Shown here in pieces: positions 1 to 16,227 of a DNA stretch of 28,237 bases. The DNA lies in IMG/VR virus record IMGVR_UViG_3300025030_001168, positions 1-28,237 of that record; one strand, written 5' to 3'. Source of the DNA: a virus. The notes under the pieces were generated by a model that searched no databases, was not told where the DNA came from, and worked only from the letters and a program-made list of their open reading frames with translations. Every line of letters starts with the position of its first letter. Position 1 is the first letter of the stretch. The translations under genes were made by a program, and so were the position numbers.

Positions 1-955
1 TTTTTTTTAGAATCCTATCTAAATCCAAATTAGCTAATTGAACTAAAGTTAGTAATCCCTTATCATAATCTTTTTTAAATTCATCAAGCCCATCAGTTGT
101 TTCCATAGCAATTCTCCAGAAAGCTACTCTTGTTTCTATTTCATTCAAAGCATTATCGTCTGAGACATTAGGTACTATTCCTGACAGATACCCTCCTAAT
201 CCTGCTGAAAGTGATCCTGCGTGTATCCAATCAAAGGGTTGTAGGGAAGGATGCCAATTCATAATTTCACCTGTTTTATCAGTTATTTCGTAAGGAGAAG
301 CGTGGTGTTGAGGTACTGATTGAGAACGAAGTCTTAATCCCCGTAATTGTATGGAAGCCCATACGAATGTATCACCCATATTATCTTCTTTAAAATGGTG
401 CATTAATTCCTGACACCATGATCCTTTGGAAAACTTTTTACTGCCAAAGTTTAAATCAGTTCTGAGTAAATCTGTACGTTTACAGAAGAAGAAGTTAGGC
501 CACCAGTTTGGTCCCTGATCTCCGTATCCTGAATAATCCAGCCCATACTTTTCCTTACTTTTATCCCATATTTCTTGTCCACAGGAACCTCTTGGAGAAC
601 CTACTATATCCGTAGTACCATTTTCAATCATTTGAAAACACCTGGAAACAATCCCAGAGTTAAAAATATAACCATCTTCTTCTAAAAACATAACCAAATC
701 TTCTTTTGCAATAAGAGTTAATTCCTTGAGAGCTTCTCCCTGTTCAATTCCGTTTGGATGATAGATAATGGTAATTTTGGGGTCTAAACAATTACCGAGA
801 AATTCCCGAACAACTTCTTGGGATACTTCTGCATGATTGTTGTAGTTGATATACAAACGGTCAATTTCATCATACCATCTTTCTTTCCACAATTTAATAG
901 CGAGGGAAGCTATAAATGGGTCTCCACTACAAGGTAAGAGCACGGCTTTTGTCAT
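1..955 (-). CDS. GT-A-like glycosyltransferase, 3' end cut by window edge
   Basis: The frame is open from an ATG at 953-955 to base 1 (318 codons) without a stop, so the C-terminus lies outside the window. It begins MTKAVLLPCSGDPF and contains LVMFLEEDGYIFNSG, a hydrophobic strand followed by an acidic EED cluster like the metal-binding DxD motif of GT-A glycosyltransferases, and later WWPNFFFCKRTDL. The next gene (952-1890) shares the N-terminal AVLLP..GDPF, the YIF(N/D)SGIV block and PNFFF, so the two are tandem paralogues. The start overlaps the upstream stop as ATGA, which supports the start and translational coupling. I infer a sugar-transfer role; donor and acceptor are unknown. Confidence 0.6.
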   Translation of the reverse strand, partial: MTKAVLLPCSGDPFIASLAIKLWKERWYDEIDRLYINYNNHAEVSQEVVREFLGNCLDPKITIIYHPNGIEQGEALKELTLIAKEDLVMFLEEDGYIFNSGIVSRCFQMIENGTTDIVGSPRGSCGQEIWDKSKEKYGLDYSGYGDQGPNWWPNFFFCKRTDLLRTDLNFGSKKFSKGSWCQELMHHFKEDNMGDTFVWASIQLRGLRLRSQSVPQHHASPYEITDKTGEIMNWHPSLQPFDWIHAGSLSAGLGGYLSGIVPNVSDDNALNEIETRVAFWRIAMETTDGLDEFKKDYDKGLLTLVQLANLDLDRILKK

Positions 956-1890
956 AATAAACTTTTAAAATACTTAATTCTTGGTTCTAATTCTTCTCTA
1001 GTTACTCCTGAGATTTTCATAATTTCATCTATAGTATTTTTATATTCATCAACAAACCACTGAATTTCTGTCATTTCAAACATCTCATAAAAAAGCACGT
1101 GCCAAGTAAGTCTCTGTAACATAATGTTGTGTGGGTAAGCATTGCTTTCCTTGCTTACTCCACTTTGGATTCCATTCCAGATAGCTGATAGTCCAGTAAC
1201 ATGAGTCCAAGGAATTTTCTTGTCTTTCCACTGCTCCCAATAACCATCCTGATACTGCGGAACATATTGCCAGCGTAACCCTTTATGTCGAAGTTCAAGC
1301 GATAATGCTCCCATTAAATCCATATCTGCTGTTTCTGGTAAAACTATATTATCTAGGAAATCTATTGGAGTATTCTTTCGTAATTGCTGAACTCCTATCC
1401 CTAATTTAGTATTTTGAATATCTGCAACTCTACCAAAAAAGAAATTAGGATAAAAAGCCAATCCTCTGTTAGCTTGTTTTTCTTCATCTGGGTACAACTC
1501 TGTTATGTATTCGTTTAGCCAAGCAGGATAAGTAAATTGATTACTGGCTACAATATCTGTCCACCCTTCTTCTATTGACCTAAAACAAGCGTCTACTATC
1601 CCAGAATCAAAAATATACGCATCGTCTTGGATAAGTAGAAATGTTTCTTCAGGCATTGGATTCATCAATAGGTCATTAAAAGCAGTGTTCATTTCATCTC
1701 CTATTCCTACAAATTGGAAATCTTTTAATAATTCTTTGGAATAGTCTATGACTTCTTGGTATTTTCCATCACGGGGGCCGATAGAAACATAAACCTTGTC
1801 TACATTCTTTCCCCACTTTTCAAAACAATATAACCAGAATTTTAATGCAAATGGGTCTCCGATACTTGGTAGTAATACAGCTCTGCTCAT
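952..1890 (-). CDS. GT-A-like glycosyltransferase, paralogue of the adjacent gene
   Basis: This 312-residue protein starts MSRAVLLPSIGDPF. The chosen ATG (1888-1890) overlaps the upstream stop as ATGA and aligns with the start of its tandem paralogue; a GTG 33 nt upstream is open but lies inside the neighbouring gene. A hydrophobic strand ending in LIQDDAYIFDSG gives a DD pair at the place expected for the GT-A metal-binding motif. FYPNFFF and a tryptophan-rich C-terminal half follow. No membrane segment is seen, so it probably acts in the cytoplasm on a nucleotide-sugar. Its placement beside sugar-modifying enzymes supports a role in glycan assembly. Family assignment is by motif only. Confidence 0.55.
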   Translation of the reverse strand: MSRAVLLPSIGDPFALKFWLYCFEKWGKNVDKVYVSIGPRDGKYQEVIDYSKELLKDFQFVGIGDEMNTAFNDLLMNPMPEETFLLIQDDAYIFDSGIVDACFRSIEEGWTDIVASNQFTYPAWLNEYITELYPDEEKQANRGLAFYPNFFFGRVADIQNTKLGIGVQQLRKNTPIDFLDNIVLPETADMDLMGALSLELRHKGLRWQYVPQYQDGYWEQWKDKKIPWTHVTGLSAIWNGIQSGVSKESNAYPHNIMLQRLTWHVLFYEMFEMTEIQWFVDEYKNTIDEIMKISGVTREELEPRIKYFKSLL

Positions 1891-2975
1891 ATAATCTGGA
1901 AATTTGGAATTGTCGTAATCCACTTACCTTTATAATTCTTTTCTTTCTTTTTGAAGTAATCCAGGAATCCATAAGGGAATACCCAAAGGTATTCACAATC
2001 TCTGGGAATAGCGTCTATTATGGGGACTTTAGTATTTATCGTATATTTACCCTTTTTGAGAGGGTTAATATCTACTATGGCTAAAGGGGCAATATGATAA
2101 TATTGCATGATAGTATTAGCCTTGGTTGATGCACCATATCCATACAAATTACCACTTAATTTTGAAATAAAGTCCCACATTTTTGACCTATTTTTTTCTA
2201 TTCTTCTAAAGAAATCCTTTAATTCTTTAATTCCATATTTCTCTTCCTTAAATTTAATGCTTCCCTTATTGTAATGTCTGGCAAATATGCGATAACTTCC
2301 CCCATTCATTCCATTTTTTTCTACTTTAAATATTTCAAGTCCGTTATGTTCATAAAGTCTTATTAAAGATTTATATGAGTAGAACTCTAAGTGTTCGTGG
2401 CATAAATTTCCTACATCGTTAAGCTCAATCATTGGAGAGAGAGTTTGTAGTTGAGAGATAAAAGTACCTTCTTTATGGAGATGTCTTTTTATATTTTTCA
2501 TAAAATTATTTGGATTTGGTAAGTCATATAAACAAGCAATAGCGGTAATTGTATAGGCCTTATAAGGAAGTGTTACATTCTCCCAATAATCCTGTATCCA
2601 TTCAGTTGCACCTTCAGGTTTTATATTAGATGGGTCAACAGCAGTTTTATGATAAACATTAGCATATTTTAGAAGTGTTCCGTCATTTGCTCCTATGTCA
2701 ATTATGTCTCCCTTAACTAAGGAAGCTATTTCTTTTAAATCCGCAACAACTACTGGATTTAATCTTGATTCATACCAATAGTTTTTATAAAGTAAATCTC
2801 TGGGCGTATTGTGTGCAAGCTGAAGTAAGGTACACTTTCCGCAATAAACAAGTTCTAGGGGGTATTTATGACCTTCAGAGGGCTTCGTAGTGAAGTCTGA
2901 TATAGCAATCTTACCCAAGGAACCTATTTTGATTAACTTTTTATTATTGCAAATTCTACAGCATTTTATTCGCAT
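1887..2975 (-). CDS. Sugar C-methyltransferase (NovU/TylCIII-like), SAM-dependent
   Basis: The 362-residue protein has the three-part layout of deoxysugar C-methyltransferases: an N-terminal zinc module (C6, C9, C45, C48), a Rossmann methyltransferase domain with SAM motif I IIDIGANDG at about residues 91-99 and HEHLEFYSY at about 193-201, and a C-terminal domain with YGYGASTKAN near 278-287. Known members methylate a carbon of nucleotide-linked keto-deoxysugars and are usually about 400 residues, so this one is slightly short. I prefer ATG 2973-2975 over a TTG 18 nt upstream because a GAAGGAG SD site sits just before it. It overlaps the upstream gene by 10 nt. The likely product is a C-methyl branched sugar; the substrate is inferred. 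Confidence 0.8.
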   Translation of the reverse strand: MRIKCCRICNNKKLIKIGSLGKIAISDFTTKPSEGHKYPLELVYCGKCTLLQLAHNTPRDLLYKNYWYESRLNPVVVADLKEIASLVKGDIIDIGANDGTLLKYANVYHKTAVDPSNIKPEGATEWIQDYWENVTLPYKAYTITAIACLYDLPNPNNFMKNIKRHLHKEGTFISQLQTLSPMIELNDVGNLCHEHLEFYSYKSLIRLYEHNGLEIFKVEKNGMNGGSYRIFARHYNKGSIKFKEEKYGIKELKDFFRRIEKNRSKMWDFISKLSGNLYGYGASTKANTIMQYYHIAPLAIVDINPLKKGKYTINTKVPIIDAIPRDCEYLWVFPYGFLDYFKKKEKNYKGKWITTIPNFQII

Positions 2976-3751
2976 AGGAACTCCTTCAACCAATGTGTTT
3001 CTGGATTAATGTCTGGAAATTTTTCTTTTAATAAAGCTAGTATCTTAGTTACTCTATCTGTATAGACATTATTCATTGGCACATTCATTTTTAGAGCATA
3101 ATATAAATATACATAATCCATTTTTCTTCTGCAATCATCTCTTGTTAGTCCCCAAATGTAACCTTGAGTCACTCCTCCTATGTGAAAGAAGTCTTTTTTA
3201 TCTTTTAAGCCTAGAACTTGGAGGGGATTAACCATCATACCTCTTTTTATCATATCCTCAGTTAAGAAATCACAATGGTCGTAACCTTCTCTTGCCGAAA
3301 AATCTTTACAACTTTTCTCATAAGAACTTCGTTTACAGGTGAAAAAAGCAGGTTGTATTAATACCTTGGCTTTATTGATGTATCCTATGAGGTCATTTAC
3401 TTCCAATGCTTCTTTCACCTTTTGAATTAATGAAGGAAAGTCTTTAACTAAAAAATCAGGGTGCATAATTAAGAACGCATCTGCGGTACTTTTGGAAAGC
3501 ATAGCTTTTAGGGCAAAATCACACCAATCTTGGTCTGCTGTTCTCAAAGATGGAGGCTCTACATAGGTAAATCCTAACTTTTGATATTCTGAAATTAAAA
3601 AGTCATCTATATCTGGAGTAATTTCGTTGGTATAGTGTTCGGAAATATATAGGAATTTCTGATTAAATAAATTACCATATTTCCCTAGTAATTCCCGAAA
3701 GTAGGGATAATCTACTCCTTTCGGAATGTATGTGAGCAGGTCTATAGTCAT
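2966..3751 (-). CDS. Probable glycosyltransferase-like protein
   Basis: This 261-residue protein lies between the aminotransferase and the C-methyltransferase, starting with an ATGA overlap. The N-terminal half is alpha/beta-like: MTIDLLTYIPKG, then a strand DAFLIMHPDFLVKD around residues 90-103 where a GT-A enzyme would carry its acidic metal site (here HPD). Later segments include FFHIGGVTQGYIWGLTRDD. The overall pattern resembles the other GT-A-like genes of this locus, but no diagnostic family motif is complete. A glycan-modifying role is inferred mainly from position. It could instead be a non-catalytic relative. Confidence 0.45.
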   Translation of the reverse strand: MTIDLLTYIPKGVDYPYFRELLGKYGNLFNQKFLYISEHYTNEITPDIDDFLISEYQKLGFTYVEPPSLRTADQDWCDFALKAMLSKSTADAFLIMHPDFLVKDFPSLIQKVKEALEVNDLIGYINKAKVLIQPAFFTCKRSSYEKSCKDFSAREGYDHCDFLTEDMIKRGMMVNPLQVLGLKDKKDFFHIGGVTQGYIWGLTRDDCRRKMDYVYLYYALKMNVPMNNVYTDRVTKILALLKEKFPDINPETHWLKEFLCE

Positions 3752-4818
3752 TTATATTCCTTTATGGTTTTTATTATGTGCGAGAATTCCTCATCAGTCA
3801 TATCGGGAAAAAGAGGTAAAGTAGCAAGTGTTTTCCACACCCTATCGGTTACAGGAAGTTTAGTTTGAGGAAAAATCTTGTAAGTATTTAGGGGTTTGTA
3901 GTGTACTCCTACAGATACTCCATGAGCCAACATATAGTCAATAAACCTATCTCTACTTTCCATTCTGATTACAAATAGGTGCCAAGAAGAATTAGCGTCA
4001 TATTTCGGAAGTTTAAGCCAATTTAGGTGCTGTAGTTCGTATAGATACTGGAGAACCCGTAGTTTTCTTTTGTTATTAAGTTCGTCAATCCTTTCCAACT
4101 GTGCTAATCCAATTGCTGCGGTAATATCGTTCATATGATATTTATATCCCACAGTTTGTATATCATAATTCCAACCATATTTCTTCTCAGTTCTCTCAAA
4201 AGTAGACTTATCAATTCCACACCATCTTAGGGGAATAAGTTTCTTATAAACTTCCTCATCATTAGTAGTTATCATTCCTCCATCTCCAGTGGCTAGATTT
4301 TTAACAGCATGGAATGACCAACAGGAAGTATTTTGTCCGACTAATTTATTGCCTGTAGCATGGGCACAGTCTTCAATCACTATAATTCCATGTTTTTTAA
4401 TTGCATAGGATAATCTTGAATCTTTACCGCCATAATGAACAGGAATAATAGCTTTGGTTTTATTAGTAACCTTCTTCTCTACATCCTTCCAGTCTATACA
4501 CAGCGTTTCTTCATCAATGTCTGCAAATATTACTTTACAGTTGTTATAAAGAGCTACAAGAGCTGTAGAAACGAATGTTAGAGCAGGAACTATAATTTCT
4601 CCATCTTTAATATCGTGAGCCTTTAGAGCTAAATCTAGGGCTGCTGTGGCACTATTTACTCCTACTGCGTATTTGGCTCCTACGTATTCAGCGAACTTTC
4701 TCTCAAATTCTTCTGTCTTTCTACCAAGACCCCACCATTTACTTCTTAAAACTTCATTTACATATTTTATTTCTAATTCAGAACAACTAGGTTCAAACAA
4801 TGGTATTAAGCTACGCAT
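3748..4818 (-). CDS. DegT/DnrJ/EryC1/StrS-family sugar aminotransferase (PLP)
   Basis: This is a complete fold-type I PLP enzyme of 356 residues from ATG 4816-4818; the family typically starts near IPLF, and an ATG 24 nt further upstream is an alternative. Visible family marks are VNSATAALDLAL, IIVPALTFVSTA, ADIDEETLCID, the cofactor aspartate in IVIEDCAHA (about D150), and the Schiff-base lysine in SFHAVKNLATGDGGM (about K173). SSWHLFVIR and GVSVGVHYKPL near the end are also typical. Such enzymes aminate nucleotide-linked 3- or 4-keto sugars. The downstream formyltransferase-domain partner suggests that the new amino group is then formylated. It overlaps the fusion gene by 8 nt and couples to the next gene through ATGA. 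Confidence 0.9.
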   Translation of the reverse strand: MRSLIPLFEPSCSELEIKYVNEVLRSKWWGLGRKTEEFERKFAEYVGAKYAVGVNSATAALDLALKAHDIKDGEIIVPALTFVSTALVALYNNCKVIFADIDEETLCIDWKDVEKKVTNKTKAIIPVHYGGKDSRLSYAIKKHGIIVIEDCAHATGNKLVGQNTSCWSFHAVKNLATGDGGMITTNDEEVYKKLIPLRWCGIDKSTFERTEKKYGWNYDIQTVGYKYHMNDITAAIGLAQLERIDELNNKRKLRVLQYLYELQHLNWLKLPKYDANSSWHLFVIRMESRDRFIDYMLAHGVSVGVHYKPLNTYKIFPQTKLPVTDRVWKTLATLPLFPDMTDEEFSHIIKTIKEYK

Positions 4819-6136
4819 AATGAATTTCAAACTTCTTTCCATTTATTACAAAATAAGGAGCTTCGAAAGGTGGGAATGTCAAAGCTCTGACATATCTGTC
4901 AATCTTATCTTTACTCCATTTTAGATTAATTTCAAGAGATGGAAACTCAGAACGGGTATGGTAGTTTTTGGAGAGTTTAATATTTTCGAAACTTGCTAGA
5001 CCTGCTCTCCAGTCTTTCATATAAGTAGGCCACCATGACTTAAACAATGCTACTGCTGCTCCTGTGCATTTGTAATATAGAGATTTACCCGTATCATAAT
5101 CATCTACACTAACCTTTGCTTGTGCATAAACTTTTCCTCCATCAATTTTAGAAGTCATCTCGTGAATTGTAATTCCTGCTTCTTTTTTCCCATCAATTAT
5201 TGGAAGTGTAGTCGGATAACAACCTCTATAATCTTGTACTAAACCCAGATGGACATTAACAGCTCCACACTTGGCTAATTTTAGGATTTGGGCAGGAATA
5301 ATCTTGTCATAATAAGCACATACTATCCAGTCAACTTTATCTTTCAGTTTAGGCTGTTCTTTCAGTACAGGATACCAAGTAGTTTTTTCATTATGGTCAT
5401 TTGTTACCACACCAACTATCTCATCTGTAGTTTTAAGATATTCCAGTATTCCATTACCTACACTTTTATCCCCAAAGAACAAAATTTTACTCAGCCACTT
5501 ATATTCGTCTGGTTTGGTTTTGTAAAATCCGAGTAATCCTCTGGGATTTGGAAAGTGCATTGGTCTTAAATCTCCATCTTTCACCCAATTCTTTATTTCC
5601 AGAGGTAAATCACCAAAAGGCCATGACTTGATTTCTGGATGGTCTGGATTAATATTCCCTTGGCAAAGAGATAACGGAACATCATGTATGAATACATACC
5701 CTCCTTCATTCAAATGAGGATAAAATTTAACCAATTCTCCCCAACGGATATTCGGTTCACTATCAAGAAAAAGCAAATCAATTTGTTCTTTAGGTTCATA
5801 TTTAGCTGCATCAATCAGCTCACAATTAACAGCTACTCCTACTTTTTCCCATAACTTCATTGCTCTTTGTCTATGATAATCAGAAATTTCAAGAGTAGTA
5901 ATATGTCCATACTTATTGTCTTTTAATGCCTGTCCCATATACATAGAGGAAATTCCAGTATAAGTTCCAGTTTCAAGAATGAAATTTGGTTGTAATATTC
6001 TAACCATACCATATAAAAATTCTCCCACTTGAACTTCAATTCCTCCATCATCAAACATTTGATAATGCCCAGTAGTATCTCTAACTTCAGGAGATATTGT
6101 TAAGCCACTTCTTGATACTAATTCATCTGTTATCAT
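4811..6136 (-). CDS. Methyltransferase - sugar N-formyltransferase fusion
   Basis: Two enzymes are joined in 441 residues. Residues 1-205 form a class I SAM methyltransferase-like domain: ILETGTYTGISS is motif I (about 53-64), and LLFLDSEPN and GGYVFIHDVP follow. Residues 215-440 are a formyltransferase: KILFFGDKSVG, VDWIVCAYYDKIIP, then the family catalytic triad N294 and H296 in AVNVHLGLVQDYRG and D332 in KIDGGKVYAQ. This triad is that of Met-tRNA formyltransferase and of sugar N-formyltransferases, which use N10-formyl-THF. Next to a sugar aminotransferase the sugar enzyme is the better reading. ATG 6134-6136 overlaps the upstream stop as ATGA; an earlier ATG at 6187 lies inside the neighbour. 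Confidence 0.8.
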   Translation of the reverse strand: MITDELVSRSGLTISPEVRDTTGHYQMFDDGGIEVQVGEFLYGMVRILQPNFILETGTYTGISSMYMGQALKDNKYGHITTLEISDYHRQRAMKLWEKVGVAVNCELIDAAKYEPKEQIDLLFLDSEPNIRWGELVKFYPHLNEGGYVFIHDVPLSLCQGNINPDHPEIKSWPFGDLPLEIKNWVKDGDLRPMHFPNPRGLLGFYKTKPDEYKWLSKILFFGDKSVGNGILEYLKTTDEIVGVVTNDHNEKTTWYPVLKEQPKLKDKVDWIVCAYYDKIIPAQILKLAKCGAVNVHLGLVQDYRGCYPTTLPIIDGKKEAGITIHEMTSKIDGGKVYAQAKVSVDDYDTGKSLYYKCTGAAVALFKSWWPTYMKDWRAGLASFENIKLSKNYHTRSEFPSLEINLKWSKDKIDRYVRALTFPPFEAPYFVINGKKFEIHYA

Positions 6137-7146
6137 AGTTTTGCAAAGAACTCCTCCCAATTTTTCTTGATGTGGTCTTTTCCCCATAATCGAATTGCAG
6201 TTTTTCTTCCCTCTTGAGAAATTCTCTTGGCTAGTTCTTCATCTTCAAATAATTGAGAAATATATCCCCGTAATTCATTAATATTGTCAGAGTAAAATCC
6301 ATTGGAACCATTTTTTATAATCGTAGGAATATCATAGTAATCCCACCTTTCATTCTGAGGTACGATAGCATTTGCTAATTCTGAACCTATGGCTACTACA
6401 GGAATTCCAGTCATCATCGCTTCCATTAAAGATAAAGTATAAGGGGAAGGCCAAGTACCTGCATAAACAAATACCCGATTATCCCGCAGTGCTCCCTTCA
6501 TCAAATCATAAGTCATTTCTCCTCCATCAAGAGACCCTAAATCCGTATTGCCAACACCATAAATTAAAGACGGAAAGCCATCTATTATCTGCATAATTGC
6601 ATCATAATGACAGCCAGCCCGTCTTCCTTTCAGGCTTTGGGTAAGATTTATTACTCGTTTTGTTTGTCCATTCCAATCCTTAAATTCTTCTGGGTCTTTG
6701 TAGAACCTTATCAGCGAATCATTTCCCACAAATCCTATTATGTTTTCTTCTTTCTGGGACATTCTAACTATTTTCATTCCCTCGTATCTCATTTTACGAA
6801 CCATGTTCTCTACAGTAGGAATTGATTGCCCAATCGTTCTCCAGATAACGGGTTTGTGTTTCATCCTATCCCAATTTTCAACTACTACATTGGGGTCGTG
6901 CATAATCATTATGGCATCAAAGAGATCAAAAAACTCTTGAGGAATTTTAGTTTTAGCCCATACTGCTTGTTCTGCTAATTCCTTATGGAAAGTCATTCCT
7001 GGTATTCCTGGCCTAATCAAAGAAGGATGTCCTTCTGGTATCATGTAGGCTCCCTGATAAGAAAAACAATCTATCCCAAGTTCAGTAAATAGAGAAAGTT
7101 CATCTCTTTCAAGCACAGAATGGGTTCCTATATAAAGTAACTTCAT
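6133..7146 (-). CDS. GT-B (GT4-like) glycosyltransferase
   Basis: The 337-residue protein has the two-domain look of a GT-B enzyme. The N-terminus is MKLLYIGTHSVLERDELSLF. The C-terminal half contains FVYAGTWPSPYTLSLMEAMMTGIPVVA (written here as two joined parts, FVYAGTWPSP and YTLSLMEAMMTGIPVVA, about residues 226-252), the donor-binding region of GT4 enzymes; E242 is the second glutamate of the usual E-x7-E pair, and the first is replaced. NGSNGFYSDNINELRGYI follows, like the end of many GT4 proteins. It is coupled by ATGA overlaps on both sides. Sugar specificity is not readable. Confidence 0.7.
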   Translation of the reverse strand: MKLLYIGTHSVLERDELSLFTELGIDCFSYQGAYMIPEGHPSLIRPGIPGMTFHKELAEQAVWAKTKIPQEFFDLFDAIMIMHDPNVVVENWDRMKHKPVIWRTIGQSIPTVENMVRKMRYEGMKIVRMSQKEENIIGFVGNDSLIRFYKDPEEFKDWNGQTKRVINLTQSLKGRRAGCHYDAIMQIIDGFPSLIYGVGNTDLGSLDGGEMTYDLMKGALRDNRVFVYAGTWPSPYTLSLMEAMMTGIPVVAIGSELANAIVPQNERWDYYDIPTIIKNGSNGFYSDNINELRGYISQLFEDEELAKRISQEGRKTAIRLWGKDHIKKNWEEFFAKL

Positions 7147-7337
7147 ATTATTCCTTCTTTCTTCAAAACTTTTTCTAATATATCTAATGCTTTTCTTCGA
7201 GTATTAGCATCTATTTTAGGATTAGCAAAATCTCTAATTCCATAAACAATACCCTGTATTCTCTGTGTTTTTTGCTTTTCTATCTCCTTATCTCTTTGAA
7301 CACACTCATAGGCACATTTTATATTCCCACAATTCAT
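7143..7337 (-). CDS. Hypothetical small protein
   Basis: I do not recognise this 64-residue protein. It has three cysteines near the N-terminus (MNCGNIKCAYECV) followed by a charged helix and a C-terminal segment RRKALDILEKVLKKEG that should be helical. It has ATGA overlaps with both neighbours and is clearly part of the leftward operon. No function is proposed. Confidence 0.6.
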   Translation of the reverse strand: MNCGNIKCAYECVQRDKEIEKQKTQRIQGIVYGIRDFANPKIDANTRRKALDILEKVLKKEGII

Positions 7338-7768
7338 TTTATTAATTTTTTAGAGCTTGGTAAAACAATTCCACTTCTTCCTGCTTCATCCATTCTTCCT
7401 ATTTGTTTATTTCTTTTTACCATTTTATCTGCAACTTGAACATAGTCTGCTTTAGTTATAAGAATTGGGTCATCCATTTTCATGCCCACTACTTTGGGAA
7501 GTAGTTCTTTTAATTTCTTCTCAAGTTTCGTCAGTTCTTCTTCACTAAAATTGAAGTGTTCACGGAGTAAATATTCAATGATAATAAGATGTTCATAATT
7601 CCACCTTACTATTGCTGTTCCATCTCTGGCATATTCTTTAATAAATTCTGGGAGTTTATTTTCAAGCCTTTGCATAATTTCAGGGGAAAGAATATCTGCT
7701 TCGCTTACCGCAGTGAGGTTTTTTTCAATTTCAGTTAATTCTTTAGTCGTAATTGCTTTAGTTTTCAT
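7334..7768 (-). CDS. Hypothetical protein, helical
   Basis: This 144-residue protein is unrecognised. It is rich in Lys and Glu, with predicted long helices around EEELTKLEKKLKELLPKVV (about residues 76-94) and a basic C-terminus. ATGA overlaps on both sides place it firmly in the operon. It precedes the glycosyltransferase cluster and lies next to small DNA-packaging-like genes, so the context does not decide its role. Confidence 0.65.
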   Translation of the reverse strand: MKTKAITTKELTEIEKNLTAVSEADILSPEIMQRLENKLPEFIKEYARDGTAIVRWNYEHLIIIEYLLREHFNFSEEELTKLEKKLKELLPKVVGMKMDDPILITKADYVQVADKMVKRNKQIGRMDEAGRSGIVLPSSKKLIK

Positions 7769-8004
7769 CTATTTATCTCTGTATTTAAAAGCTCATTTTC
7801 TATTGATAGCCAAATATCTCTAATGGTTATTTTATATTTATGAATAAATGGAAATTCTTTAGAAAAATAATAATATGTTGTTCTATTATATTTTTCCATA
7901 ACATAATAAAAAGACCGTTCTATGCGGAAGTATAACTGACTAGCAAAGTCATCTGTTCCCCCTTCCAAGACATAATCAGGTAGTTTTTTTTTAGTTTTTA
8001 CCAT
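7765..8004 (-). CDS. Hypothetical small protein, aromatic-rich
   Basis: This is an unrecognised 79-residue protein with an unusual run of aromatic residues (FYYVMEKYNRTTYYYFSKEF) in its middle. It overlaps the upstream gene by 14 nt and the downstream gene by an ATGA. No signal peptide or membrane helix is evident. Confidence 0.6.
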   Translation of the reverse strand: MVKTKKKLPDYVLEGGTDDFASQLYFRIERSFYYVMEKYNRTTYYYFSKEFPFIHKYKITIRDIWLSIENELLNTEINR

Positions 8005-8200
8005 GCTTTATATATAATTTTATTGATTTTCTTATAGTTTTTAATGTTGCCTGAACTCCCTTCATTTTAAAAAATCGGGTTGATTGATTATATTGTCCGT
8101 GGCCATATCCTGCTTCTTTCATTGATCTTCTTACAGAATACCCTTGAAAAATTAGCATAAGAGCTTTAATCTGAAGTGTAGTTGCTTTAATTCTTTTCAC
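7991..8200 (-). CDS. Stand-alone copy of the terminase small subunit HTH domain
   Basis: This 69-residue protein starts at a GTG preceded by a strong SD (AAGGAGG, 8207-8214 region on the minus strand). It aligns without gaps to residues near the N-terminus of the terminase small subunit encoded at 17760-18215. About 24 of 52 positions are identical by eye, including QIKA, SVR, AGY and FFK.KG. It therefore looks like a duplicated helix-turn-helix DNA-binding domain lacking the oligomerisation and C-terminal parts. It could bind the packaging site and compete with the terminase, or act as a regulator; both roles are inference. Confidence 0.7.
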   Translation of the reverse strand: MKRIKATTLQIKALMLIFQGYSVRRSMKEAGYGHGQYNQSTRFFKMKGVQATLKTIRKSIKLYIKHGKN

Positions 8201-8387
8201 TTTTAAGAAACCTCCTTATCTTTTTAAGCAAAGCTCTTGTATCTTTATTTTGGAATATCTGCATACTTAGAGTATCTAGTGCTTGTTTCAGACAAATTTT
8301 ACAATAATGATAATCATTAAATTCTGATTTTATAATCATCAAATCTTCTGGATTATATAACTGATTACACTTATTACAGAGTAGCAT
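8187..8387 (-). CDS. Small zinc-ribbon-like protein
   Basis: This 66-residue protein from ATG 8385-8387 begins MLLCNKCNQLY and has a second pair in HYCKICLKQA, giving a CxxC-x(n)-CxxC zinc knuckle, followed by a basic helical tail (LLKKIRRFLKSEKN). A TTG 12 nt upstream is an alternative start. The gene overlaps the end of the upstream glycosyltransferase by 14 nt. It is probably nucleic acid- or protein-binding; the partner is unknown. Confidence 0.6.
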   Translation of the reverse strand: MLLCNKCNQLYNPEDLMIIKSEFNDYHYCKICLKQALDTLSMQIFQNKDTRALLKKIRRFLKSEKN

Positions 8388-9474
8388 AAATTTGTTCAAG
8401 ACGTTGAAGCATTAAAGCTCCGACTTTCTGAAAACTAAAATTATTCATCACATATTCTTGGGCTTTTCTGCCTACTTTAACAGCCTTTTCGTAGTTATTG
8501 AATACTTCCAACATAGCTTTACCTAGTTCCTTTTCATCTAACATCTGCCATAGCATCTGATCTGTGTACCACGGAATATGGTTTTGGGAAGTAGCTTTCT
8601 GAGGCTTGCTTGGAACAGGAAAGTAATTAGTTGTGTAGTCTGTAATTCCTCCATGACTGCCTGAAATACAAGGTTTACCCATAAGCATTGCTTCCATTAT
8701 GGGTCTGTTCCACCCTTCTCCTGTTGAAGGATTTACAAAACAGTCTCCAGTTTTATGGAGCTTTAACATCTGAGTATCGGTAAGTAAGTTTCTGCATAAG
8801 TAAATTTTAGGATAGTGATTAAGACTTGCTTCTTTCTTCCATCCCTCAATTTCTTTTTTAAGAATACTAAATTCTGCGTCTGAATAGTTTACTCTGTGAG
8901 TTTTGAGTAGTAATGAAACCTTGTCATTTCCTTCAAATGCTTTCCAGTACGCCATCAAGAGTCCCTTGGGATTCTTCCTATCTATCCATTGAAAGATGGA
9001 GTAAAAGGTAAAGTCTTTAGGATATGGAAATAGAAATGGTTCAATACTTTCTTCTCCTCGTCCTGTAAATATAGGCTGAGGGAAAATGTAACAAGGTGTG
9101 GTAACTCCGCTTTTCTTAATCATTTCTGCCATTGTCTCCGAACCAGTCCACACCTCGTCTAGAGGTTGTACCCATTCTTTCGGAAGCCTATCAGTCTCCC
9201 AAAATAGATGGCTTATGGTATATCCGTTTTTATAGACTGGTAGGAGATCAGGGGTTAAGTGTACGATAGTTATTTTAGAAGGAATCTTTCTTCCTTCAAG
9301 ATTAGTAAGTATTCCTCCATTTAATCCATAAGAGGTTGTTTCAGGCATTTGTGATATTGTCTCAGTAGATAAATTTACACCCGATACAAATAATGCCGTT
9401 ATAAAGTTCCTGGCGGCTTCACCGTAGCCGCTTGGATTTCTTGCACTCGATACATACCTTGCATTTATGTTCAT
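8374..9474 (-). CDS. GT4-family glycosyltransferase
   Basis: The 366-residue protein has the hallmarks of a GT-B fold retaining glycosyltransferase of family GT4. The N-terminal Rossmann domain starts MNINARYVSSARNPSGYG with the glycine-rich acceptor-side loop. A second domain begins near residue 155 (FYSIFQWIDRKNPKGLL). The donor-binding motif STGEGWNRPIMEAMLMGKP has the E253-x7-E261 pair typical of GT4. It ends with a helix FSFQKVGALMLQRLEQIY. There is no membrane segment. It is separated from the other carbohydrate genes by five small genes but shares the operon. It overlaps its upstream neighbour by one base (TAATG). Confidence 0.8.
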   Translation of the reverse strand: MNINARYVSSARNPSGYGEAARNFITALFVSGVNLSTETISQMPETTSYGLNGGILTNLEGRKIPSKITIVHLTPDLLPVYKNGYTISHLFWETDRLPKEWVQPLDEVWTGSETMAEMIKKSGVTTPCYIFPQPIFTGRGEESIEPFLFPYPKDFTFYSIFQWIDRKNPKGLLMAYWKAFEGNDKVSLLLKTHRVNYSDAEFSILKKEIEGWKKEASLNHYPKIYLCRNLLTDTQMLKLHKTGDCFVNPSTGEGWNRPIMEAMLMGKPCISGSHGGITDYTTNYFPVPSKPQKATSQNHIPWYTDQMLWQMLDEKELGKAMLEVFNNYEKAVKVGRKAQEYVMNNFSFQKVGALMLQRLEQIYATL

Positions 9475-15507: not shown

Positions 15508-15536
15508 TTGACAAAAGTAAGGTAGTGGTGTATAAT
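15508..15536 (+). promoter_or_regulatory. Consensus rightward promoter (leaderless)
   Basis: TTGACA (15508-15513) and TATAAT (15531-15536) are both perfect and 17 nt apart. The A of the next ATG (15543) is the seventh base after the -10 box, exactly where transcription should start, so the message would have no leader. Confidence 0.85.
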
Positions 15537-15542
15537 GTGTGT

Positions 15543-15887
15543 ATGGTTAAAAGATTAAATATAACTCTACCAGAAGAATTACTTACTAAGGTTGACAACT
15601 GGGGAAAAAAGTATTTTACATCAAGGAGTGAAGTAATTAAAGATGCTCTTGTGGAATATATACAGATACCTTTATCGGTAAAGGAGCAGAACGAAATTAT
15701 AGACGAAATAGCTGGTACAGAAGAAGCCTCGTTAGGAACAATACCTATTACCGCTACAGAGAAAAATTTGAAAACGAGTGGAGGGCTTGAGACAGTGTCT
15801 TCTGACGCCCCTACGGTATGTGTGCATGGAAAAACTAAGACTTATTGTACTATAGCCAAGTGTGAGAATTATGCTTCATGGAGATAA
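15543..15887 (+). CDS. Ribbon-helix-helix regulator with cysteine-rich tail
   Basis: The 114-residue protein starts with a typical CopG/Arc-type domain: strand VKRLNITLP, helix EELLTKVDNWGKKY, and FTSRSEVIKDALVEYIQ. It would dimerise and bind operator DNA. The C-terminal tail CVHGKTKTYCTIAKCENYA has three cysteines and a histidine, perhaps a metal site. A longer in-frame ATG at 15483 is rejected because the consensus promoter lies between it and 15543. It is the first rightward gene, has no SD and is probably leaderless. It is a likely early regulator of the switch. Confidence 0.8.
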   Translation: MVKRLNITLPEELLTKVDNWGKKYFTSRSEVIKDALVEYIQIPLSVKEQNEIIDEIAGTEEASLGTIPITATEKNLKTSGGLETVSSDAPTVCVHGKTKTYCTIAKCENYASWR

Positions 15888-16160
15888 ATGAAAATAGGAA
15901 AAAAAGTACGGGAGTGGATAAAAGCCAGTGATATTCTTGAGGAAATATATCTTGAGAAGGGAATAGTGTCTTGTGAACTGAAATTTGAGGGTTGCTGGAT
16001 AAATAATGCCCTGCACTTTGCCCATAAGTATAAACGTAATGATCCCCGCTGTGAACATACGTTTGAAGGGACTATACTCCTTTGCAATCCGTGTCATCAC
16101 CAGATAGAATACGATAGAGAGAAAACAGAGGAAGTATTTAAAAAACTAAGGGGCTATTAG
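15888..16160 (+). CDS. HNH endonuclease-like protein
   Basis: This 90-residue protein has an HNH core with structural cysteines: SCELKFEGCWINNALHFAHK (cysteine pair, then the histidine of the beta-hairpin) and ILLCNPCHHQIEYD (CxxCH plus the second histidine). The spacing fits small phage HNH proteins that nick DNA or assist packaging. GGAG lies 4-5 nt before the ATG, which follows the upstream stop directly. The last codons overlap the tRNA-like element at 16150. Confidence 0.75.
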   Translation: MKIGKKVREWIKASDILEEIYLEKGIVSCELKFEGCWINNALHFAHKYKRNDPRCEHTFEGTILLCNPCHHQIEYDREKTEEVFKKLRGY

Positions 16161-16227
16161 TTTCGACTGTCTACTCATTGAGATAATGTAGCTTAGACAA
16201 GATGGAGTGCGATTCTCCATAGCTCCA
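16150..16227 (+). ncRNA. tRNA-like element resembling a tmRNA without its mRNA domain
   Basis: Five parts of the tmRNA tRNA-like domain are in order. The acceptor stem GGGGCTA (16150-16156) pairs with TAGCTCC (16220-16226, one G-T pair). The D-region signature TTCGAC is at 16162-16167. A helix-2 stem TGTCTA (16168-16173) pairs with TAGACA (16194-16199). A T arm TGGAG/CTCCA (16203-16207, 16215-16219) encloses the 7-nt loop TGCGATT. A discriminator A is at 16227. The 5' GGGGCT...TTCGAC and 3' AGCTCCA match tmRNA ends. Instead of a tag reading frame, a 20-nt hairpin (CTAC...GTAG) caps helix 2. No alanine tag frame fits inside. It could be a functional small RNA, a mimic, or the remains of an att site. 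Confidence 0.5.

Follow-up and report, generated by a model that had tools for sequence, protein, structure and literature searches.

In this study, we analyzed 28,237 nucleotides (nt) of viral DNA, positions 1 to 28,237 of the IMG/VR virus record IMGVR_UViG_3300025030_001168 (hereafter the window), and identified on its plus strand a transfer-messenger RNA (tmRNA) reduced to its transfer RNA (tRNA)-like domain (TLD). This TLD-only tmRNA, or mini-tmRNA, overlaps the 3' end of an upstream HNH-like open reading frame (ORF) (Table 1). It was read directly from the sequence, measures 78 nt and ends at the discriminator base A73. The acceptor stem is paired at 7/7 positions, including G3.U70, helix 2 (H2) at 6/6 and the T stem at 5/5. 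The signature TTCGAC is separated from the T stem by 35 nt, and the mRNA-like domain with its resume codon and tag reading frame is missing; the 20-nt insert that occupies its place can form a small hairpin of its own. A preliminary description of this DNA had already pointed out the succession of acceptor stem, TTCGAC, helix 2, T arm and AGCTCCA end within 78 nt and the short hairpin in place of the tag-coding part. Both were borne out, with all stems intact and with neither pseudoknots nor a tag frame in the insert. It had also remarked that the T loop is TGCGATT rather than TTCNANN, which is correct; the deviation concerns a single position (T54-G55-C56-G57-A58). The bases CA directly follow A73, so that the CCA end is incompletely encoded.

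Table 1 Features of the mini-tmRNA locus in the window.
Feature	Position	Strand	Remark
Sigma-70-type promoter match	15508..15536	+	TTGACA-17-TATAAT, perfect 12/12; ahead of the RHH-HNH-mini-tmRNA run
Ribbon-helix-helix (RHH, CopG-type) regulator ORF	15543..15887	+	First gene after the promoter
HNH-like ORF	15888..16160	+	Upstream of the element, stop codon inside it; HNH label from the preliminary description
Mini-tmRNA, complete	16150..16227	+	GGGGCTA-TTAGT-TTCGAC-TGTCTA-CTCATTGAGATAATGTAGCT-TAGACA-AGA-TGGAG-TGCGATT-CTCCA-TAGCTCC-A
Acceptor stem, 5' strand GGGGCTA	16150..16156	+	G3 of G3.U70 at 16152
D loop without D stem, TTAGT-TTCGAC	16157..16167	+	tmRNA signature TTCGAC at 16162-16167
Helix 2, 5' strand TGTCTA	16168..16173	+	Read directly; covariation in the family
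Insert of 20 nt, small hairpin	16174..16193	+	CTCATTGAGATAATGTAGCT; replaces pseudoknots and tag reading frame
Helix 2, 3' strand TAGACA	16194..16199	+	Read directly; covariation in the family
Linker AGA	16200..16202	+	GGAC in most relatives
T arm TGGAG-TGCGATT-CTCCA	16203..16219	+	G55 accompanied by A at the G18 position of the D loop, a trait of the AG/TG subfamily
Acceptor stem, 3' strand TAGCTCC, and discriminator A73	16220..16227	+	U70 at 16224

The element shows the features of the TLD of full-length tmRNA (G3.U70 acceptor, A73, TTCGAC, T arm and no D stem), and as a phage gene of little more than this domain it belongs with the phage TLD-only tmRNAs. It is not a canonical tRNA: no D stem was found by inspection, and ARAGORN made no call on it. 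An Rfam scan of the window at gathering and relaxed thresholds did not call the element, nor did the tmRNA model RF00023, the check named in the preliminary description, match it in a search of the whole record. A strict descriptor of the architecture, which was composed after the site had been seen and is therefore partly post hoc, gave one match in the window, the element itself, while 10,414 dinucleotide shuffles yielded no match.

Three pattern scans of viral contigs combined yielded at least 171 viral loci that pass the descriptor and share a common design of 74-81 nt. The first pattern, with 22 fixed bases and G3.U70 forced, matched 70 viral contigs; three of these were chance matches (L041, L060 and L068), and nearly all of the remainder have this single design. 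The second left the acceptor unconstrained, and its loci are counted among the matches listed. The third required a D loop with AG together with a T loop with TGCGA and gave 16 matches. The family is biased toward viruses: in 257 Gb of prokaryotic contigs, the first pattern gave 21 matches, three of them genuine (L076, L082 and L083), and L076 adjoins terminase and portal genes. A full tmRNA is also present in all three bins. The copy in L082 (6776-6856) is located among ordinary bacterial genes, and that in L083 (737-800, an Anaerolineae bin) is a 64-nt form in which a single stem replaces helix 2 and the hairpin.

RF00023 recognizes the relatives, scoring 57-80 bits against a gathering threshold of 47 at 11 of 12 loci tested. 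In 34 IMG/VR records, many of them fragments, it marks the approximately 80-nt element only and no full tmRNA. Cultured carriers include the Streptomyces phages LuckySocke, GiJojo, pSt2308, BRock and Shaeky, Pontimonas phage phiPsal1 and Stenotrophomonas phage Jojan60; the mini-tmRNA is not annotated as such in the public records of any of them. Several further RNAs were noted. Karimac (L201, 6001-6078) and Riptide (L206, 1476-1552) carry a full tmRNA plus a TLD-only RNA with an altered TTCGAC (GGTGTGAC and GGTTAGAT, respectively). Vibrio phage D239 (L210, 1461-1528) has an unannotated 68-nt tRNA-Ala(UGC)-like RNA, seemingly without a D arm and with the acceptor GGGGCTG/CAGCTCC. In Tunturiibacter phage Tunturi_4 (L215, ~1400-1531), RF00023 scores 41 bits over 132 nt beside a gene with an RF-1 domain (ArfB-like); this may be a further truncated tmRNA, next to a rescue factor.

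Covariation indicates that the fold of the family is under selection. Among 35 members, 96.1% of the pair cells are paired, and 189 cells carry a double change compared with 51.5 in shuffles. The covariation score is 0.685 (0.151 in shuffles), and controls with slid pairings collapse. A wider set of 49 members, whose alignment was fitted to the model, gave a similar result. The preliminary description had named compensatory changes in relatives as one of its tests, and these occur in the acceptor, H2 and T stems across the family. This part holds for distant relatives; in phages closely related to that of the window, the genome parts covered contain no such element.

The conserved features were further evaluated in a non-redundant set of 91 sequences among the matches listed, comprising viral loci, the window, phage isolates and two bacterial bins. 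G3.U70 is present in 91/91 and A73 in 91/91, while pairs 4:69, 5:68 and 6:67 each occur with five pair types and the T stem changes freely. Fifty-two of the 91 came from the search that left the acceptor free, and all of these (52/52) have G3.U70. G3.U70 is the classic identity element of alanyl-tRNA synthetase (AlaRS), and because it is invariant, charging with alanine appears, from the sequences, to be under selection. C74 is encoded in most copies and the full CCA in 21 of the 91. A micro-tag in the insert was considered and rejected: GCN-to-stop frames occur in 34/91 sequences with scattered lengths of 1-9, and no frame is conserved.

The window copy is a divergent member of this family. 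A covariance model (R2) built from 35 relatives, with the window left out, matched it at 38.2 bits (E = 3.5e-8), the sole good match in the window, and G3.U70 and A73 are in place. Several points weigh against the assignment. Other members score 46-93 bits, while two unclear RNAs that are not members reach 37-38 bits and one tRNA-Ala 33. The GGAC linker and the AAARCC..GG motif of the insert, common in relatives but not defining, are both missing from the window copy. The element is also absent from the covered genome parts of phages that are related to the window phage, with TerL identities of up to 72%. Since the score is close to those of non-members, TTCGAC, the missing D stem and the AG/TG pairing are also needed to support membership, and since close relatives lack the element, the compensatory support for the window copy comes from distant ones.

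Most members combine GG in the D loop with TTCGA in the T loop. The window, L057, L186-L193 and others instead share an AG(T) D loop and a TGCGA T loop and form a subfamily. Only three contigs showed AG together with TTCGA, and in two of them GG is close by. The AG/TGCGA combination suggests that the two partners of the G18-U55 tertiary contact changed together, although the search for this subfamily itself imposed the pairing. Phages related by their portal protein (54-73% identical, one fragment 100%) have no element in the genome parts covered, and the element therefore looks to be gained and lost like a tRNA gene.

The preliminary description had stated that the 5' end of the element overlaps the last codons of the HNH gene, and the overlap amounts to 11 nt, with the stop codon TAG (16158-16160) inside the D loop of the element. 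RNase P cleavage at 16150 would thus leave a non-stop mRNA. A one-base overlap with the upstream stop codon (TA-G) was found with a phage exonuclease gene in L003, L021, L029 and L057 and with other genes in L018 and L160; the overlapping 390-amino-acid neighbour is the phage exonuclease. Judging from these arrangements, maturation of the element should turn the mRNA of the overlapping upstream gene into a non-stop mRNA. A similar overlap is described for smpB/ssrA of Carsonella, where it is said to occur nowhere else (PMC4131195). The HNH-like ORF had no match in PHROGs and Pfam, and the scan turned up no relatives of its protein. Large phages carry the element within tRNA arrays; in Streptomyces phage Shaeky, for example, it follows tRNA-Phe at a distance of 4 nt. 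The neighbours of family members are diverse, the commonest being capsid, exonuclease and DnaB-type helicase genes, and a dedicated partner gene was rejected on account of this diversity. No SmpB gene was present in 44 records; a phage SmpB partner was accordingly rejected, and host SmpB must serve.

Two further observations concern the window. The expected start site of the promoter falls on the ATG of the RHH gene (15543), which suggests a leaderless or nearly leaderless mRNA. On the minus strand, positions 952-9474 are a phage sugar-modification cluster with glycosyltransferases, methyltransferases, a fused methyltransferase-formyltransferase (4811-6187) and a DegT aminotransferase (3748-4842).

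We read the element as a putative alanine-charged, SmpB-dependent decoy or tag-less rescuer. A minimal tRNA-like RNA or a decoy for AlaRS or SmpB had been among the suggestions of the preliminary description, and this fits the compensatory changes in the family and the fixed G3.U70 and A73. On balance, we favour a phage-encoded tmRNA reduced to its TLD that serves as a charged decoy and blunts host trans-translation. The RNA would be transcribed with neighbouring genes, or inside tRNA arrays in other phages. RNase P would cut at G1, and host enzymes would finish the 3' end and add CCA. Host AlaRS would then charge the RNA with alanine, and host SmpB and EF-Tu would bind the charged form. It would take the place of host tmRNA on a non-stop ribosome and receive the nascent chain, and without a reading frame no degradation tag would be added. 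The net effect would be that host trans-translation is blunted during infection and incomplete phage proteins are spared. A crystal structure has captured the TLD with SmpB and EF-Tu bound to a stalled ribosome. Two papers state that a TLD-only molecule like that of phage DS6A, chargeable or not, strongly inhibits tmRNA in Escherichia coli (PMC4131195, PMC11915505). The published inhibition is, however, independent of alanine charging and by itself gives no reason for the retention of G3.U70 (PMC4131195).

More tentatively, many phage lineages may use an alanine-charged, tag-less tmRNA on the ribosome itself. It could counter trans-translation in general, or it could act in rescue by releasing chains to which a single alanine has been added. 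In a subset of these phages, processing may turn the upstream gene (the exonuclease, or HNH here) into a non-stop mRNA and so wire the RNA to its operon.

Among the alternatives, active rescue without a tag is the one that deserves most attention, though we consider it rather unlikely. The charged RNA would take the nascent chain plus one alanine, the chain would then be dropped or hydrolysed, and the benefit would lie in recycled ribosomes rather than in blocked tagging. That G3.U70 and A73 are so strictly conserved implies a role for charging, which passive titration of SmpB would not need, and mitochondrial tmRNA without a tag frame still co-occurs with SmpB (PMC11915505). Without a resume codon, however, the ribosome cannot reach a stop codon, and the published assay shows inhibition of tmRNA and not rescue (PMC4131195). 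Less probable still is a passive sponge, in which the uncharged RNA merely titrates SmpB. Hudson et al. 2014, citing Mao et al. 2009, do suggest SmpB titration as a possible route of the inhibition (PMC4131195). The sponge leaves unexplained an AlaRS identity pair kept throughout the listed sequences amid free covariation around it. Since a pure SmpB sponge would not need a strict G3.U70, the charged form of the RNA probably matters.

The preliminary description had also considered the remnant of an attachment site derived from a tmRNA gene. We regard such a remnant, or a decaying pseudogene, as very improbable. Integration at ssrA is common, the window copy has diverged, and in L122 a second, degenerate copy (5-81) lies upstream of the intact one. 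However, attP cores retain no more than the 3' half of the gene, whereas in the window both halves are present and paired, with all helices intact. Across many unrelated phages the 5' half is likewise kept and covaries with the 3' half, which contradicts the attachment-site and pseudogene readings for the family. Integrase families are not among the common neighbours of its members. A permuted two-piece tmRNA was rejected, as the gene order is direct. A chance fold in the window is scarcely credible: the folding energy is unremarkable (z -1.5), a measure not counted as evidence because single-sequence minimum free energy folding often mispredicts helix 2, but the empty shuffles and the held-out model stand against it.

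The phage TLD-only kind of tmRNA is far wider than known and under selection: a form reported from one phage proves common in viruses and clearly selected, above all for its alanine-charging mark. This speaks for phages using an RNA against the main ribosome-rescue system of bacteria. In the mini-tmRNA, nature provides a counterpart to the tRNA-like fragments with which SmpB has been studied on the ribosome, and the cultured Streptomyces, Pontimonas and Stenotrophomonas phages make its role open to testing. In the open-access literature, we found no report of a wide viral mini-tmRNA family. The breadth, the covariation, the strict conservation of the alanine mark, the unannotated copies in cultured phages and the subfamily with paired D-loop and T-loop changes are new.

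The preliminary description knew of no standard gene of this form, but related molecules have been published. Hudson et al. 2014, citing Mao et al. 2009, list a tmRNA of "Mycobacterium phage DS6A (TLD only)" (PMC4131195), and a 2025 tmRNA database paper repeats this case and adds plastid and mitochondrial forms without a coding sequence (PMC11915505). Compared with the bacterial one-piece tmRNA (ssrA, RF00023), the window element has the same G3.U70 acceptor, A73, TTCGAC, helix 2 and T arm and likewise no D stem, but it lacks pseudoknots, resume codon and tag frame and measures 78 nt against about 230-400. The two-piece tmRNA of phage Melnitz is also phage-borne; it has a permuted order and a tag frame, whereas the window element runs directly 5' to 3' and has no frame (PMC9004378). 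The mitochondrial tmRNAs of jakobids and oomycetes (RF02544) and the ~65-nt plastid forms of Mallomonadaceae have also lost the tag frame and kept the TLD. These are organellar and of their own ancestry, in contrast to the phage group, which has its own insert hairpin and resides in viral genomes. The closest counterpart by description, the DS6A tmRNA, is likewise phage-borne with little beyond the TLD. It was reported as a single case, and the window copy differs in its TGCGATT T loop, the AGT in its D loop and its non-standard insert.
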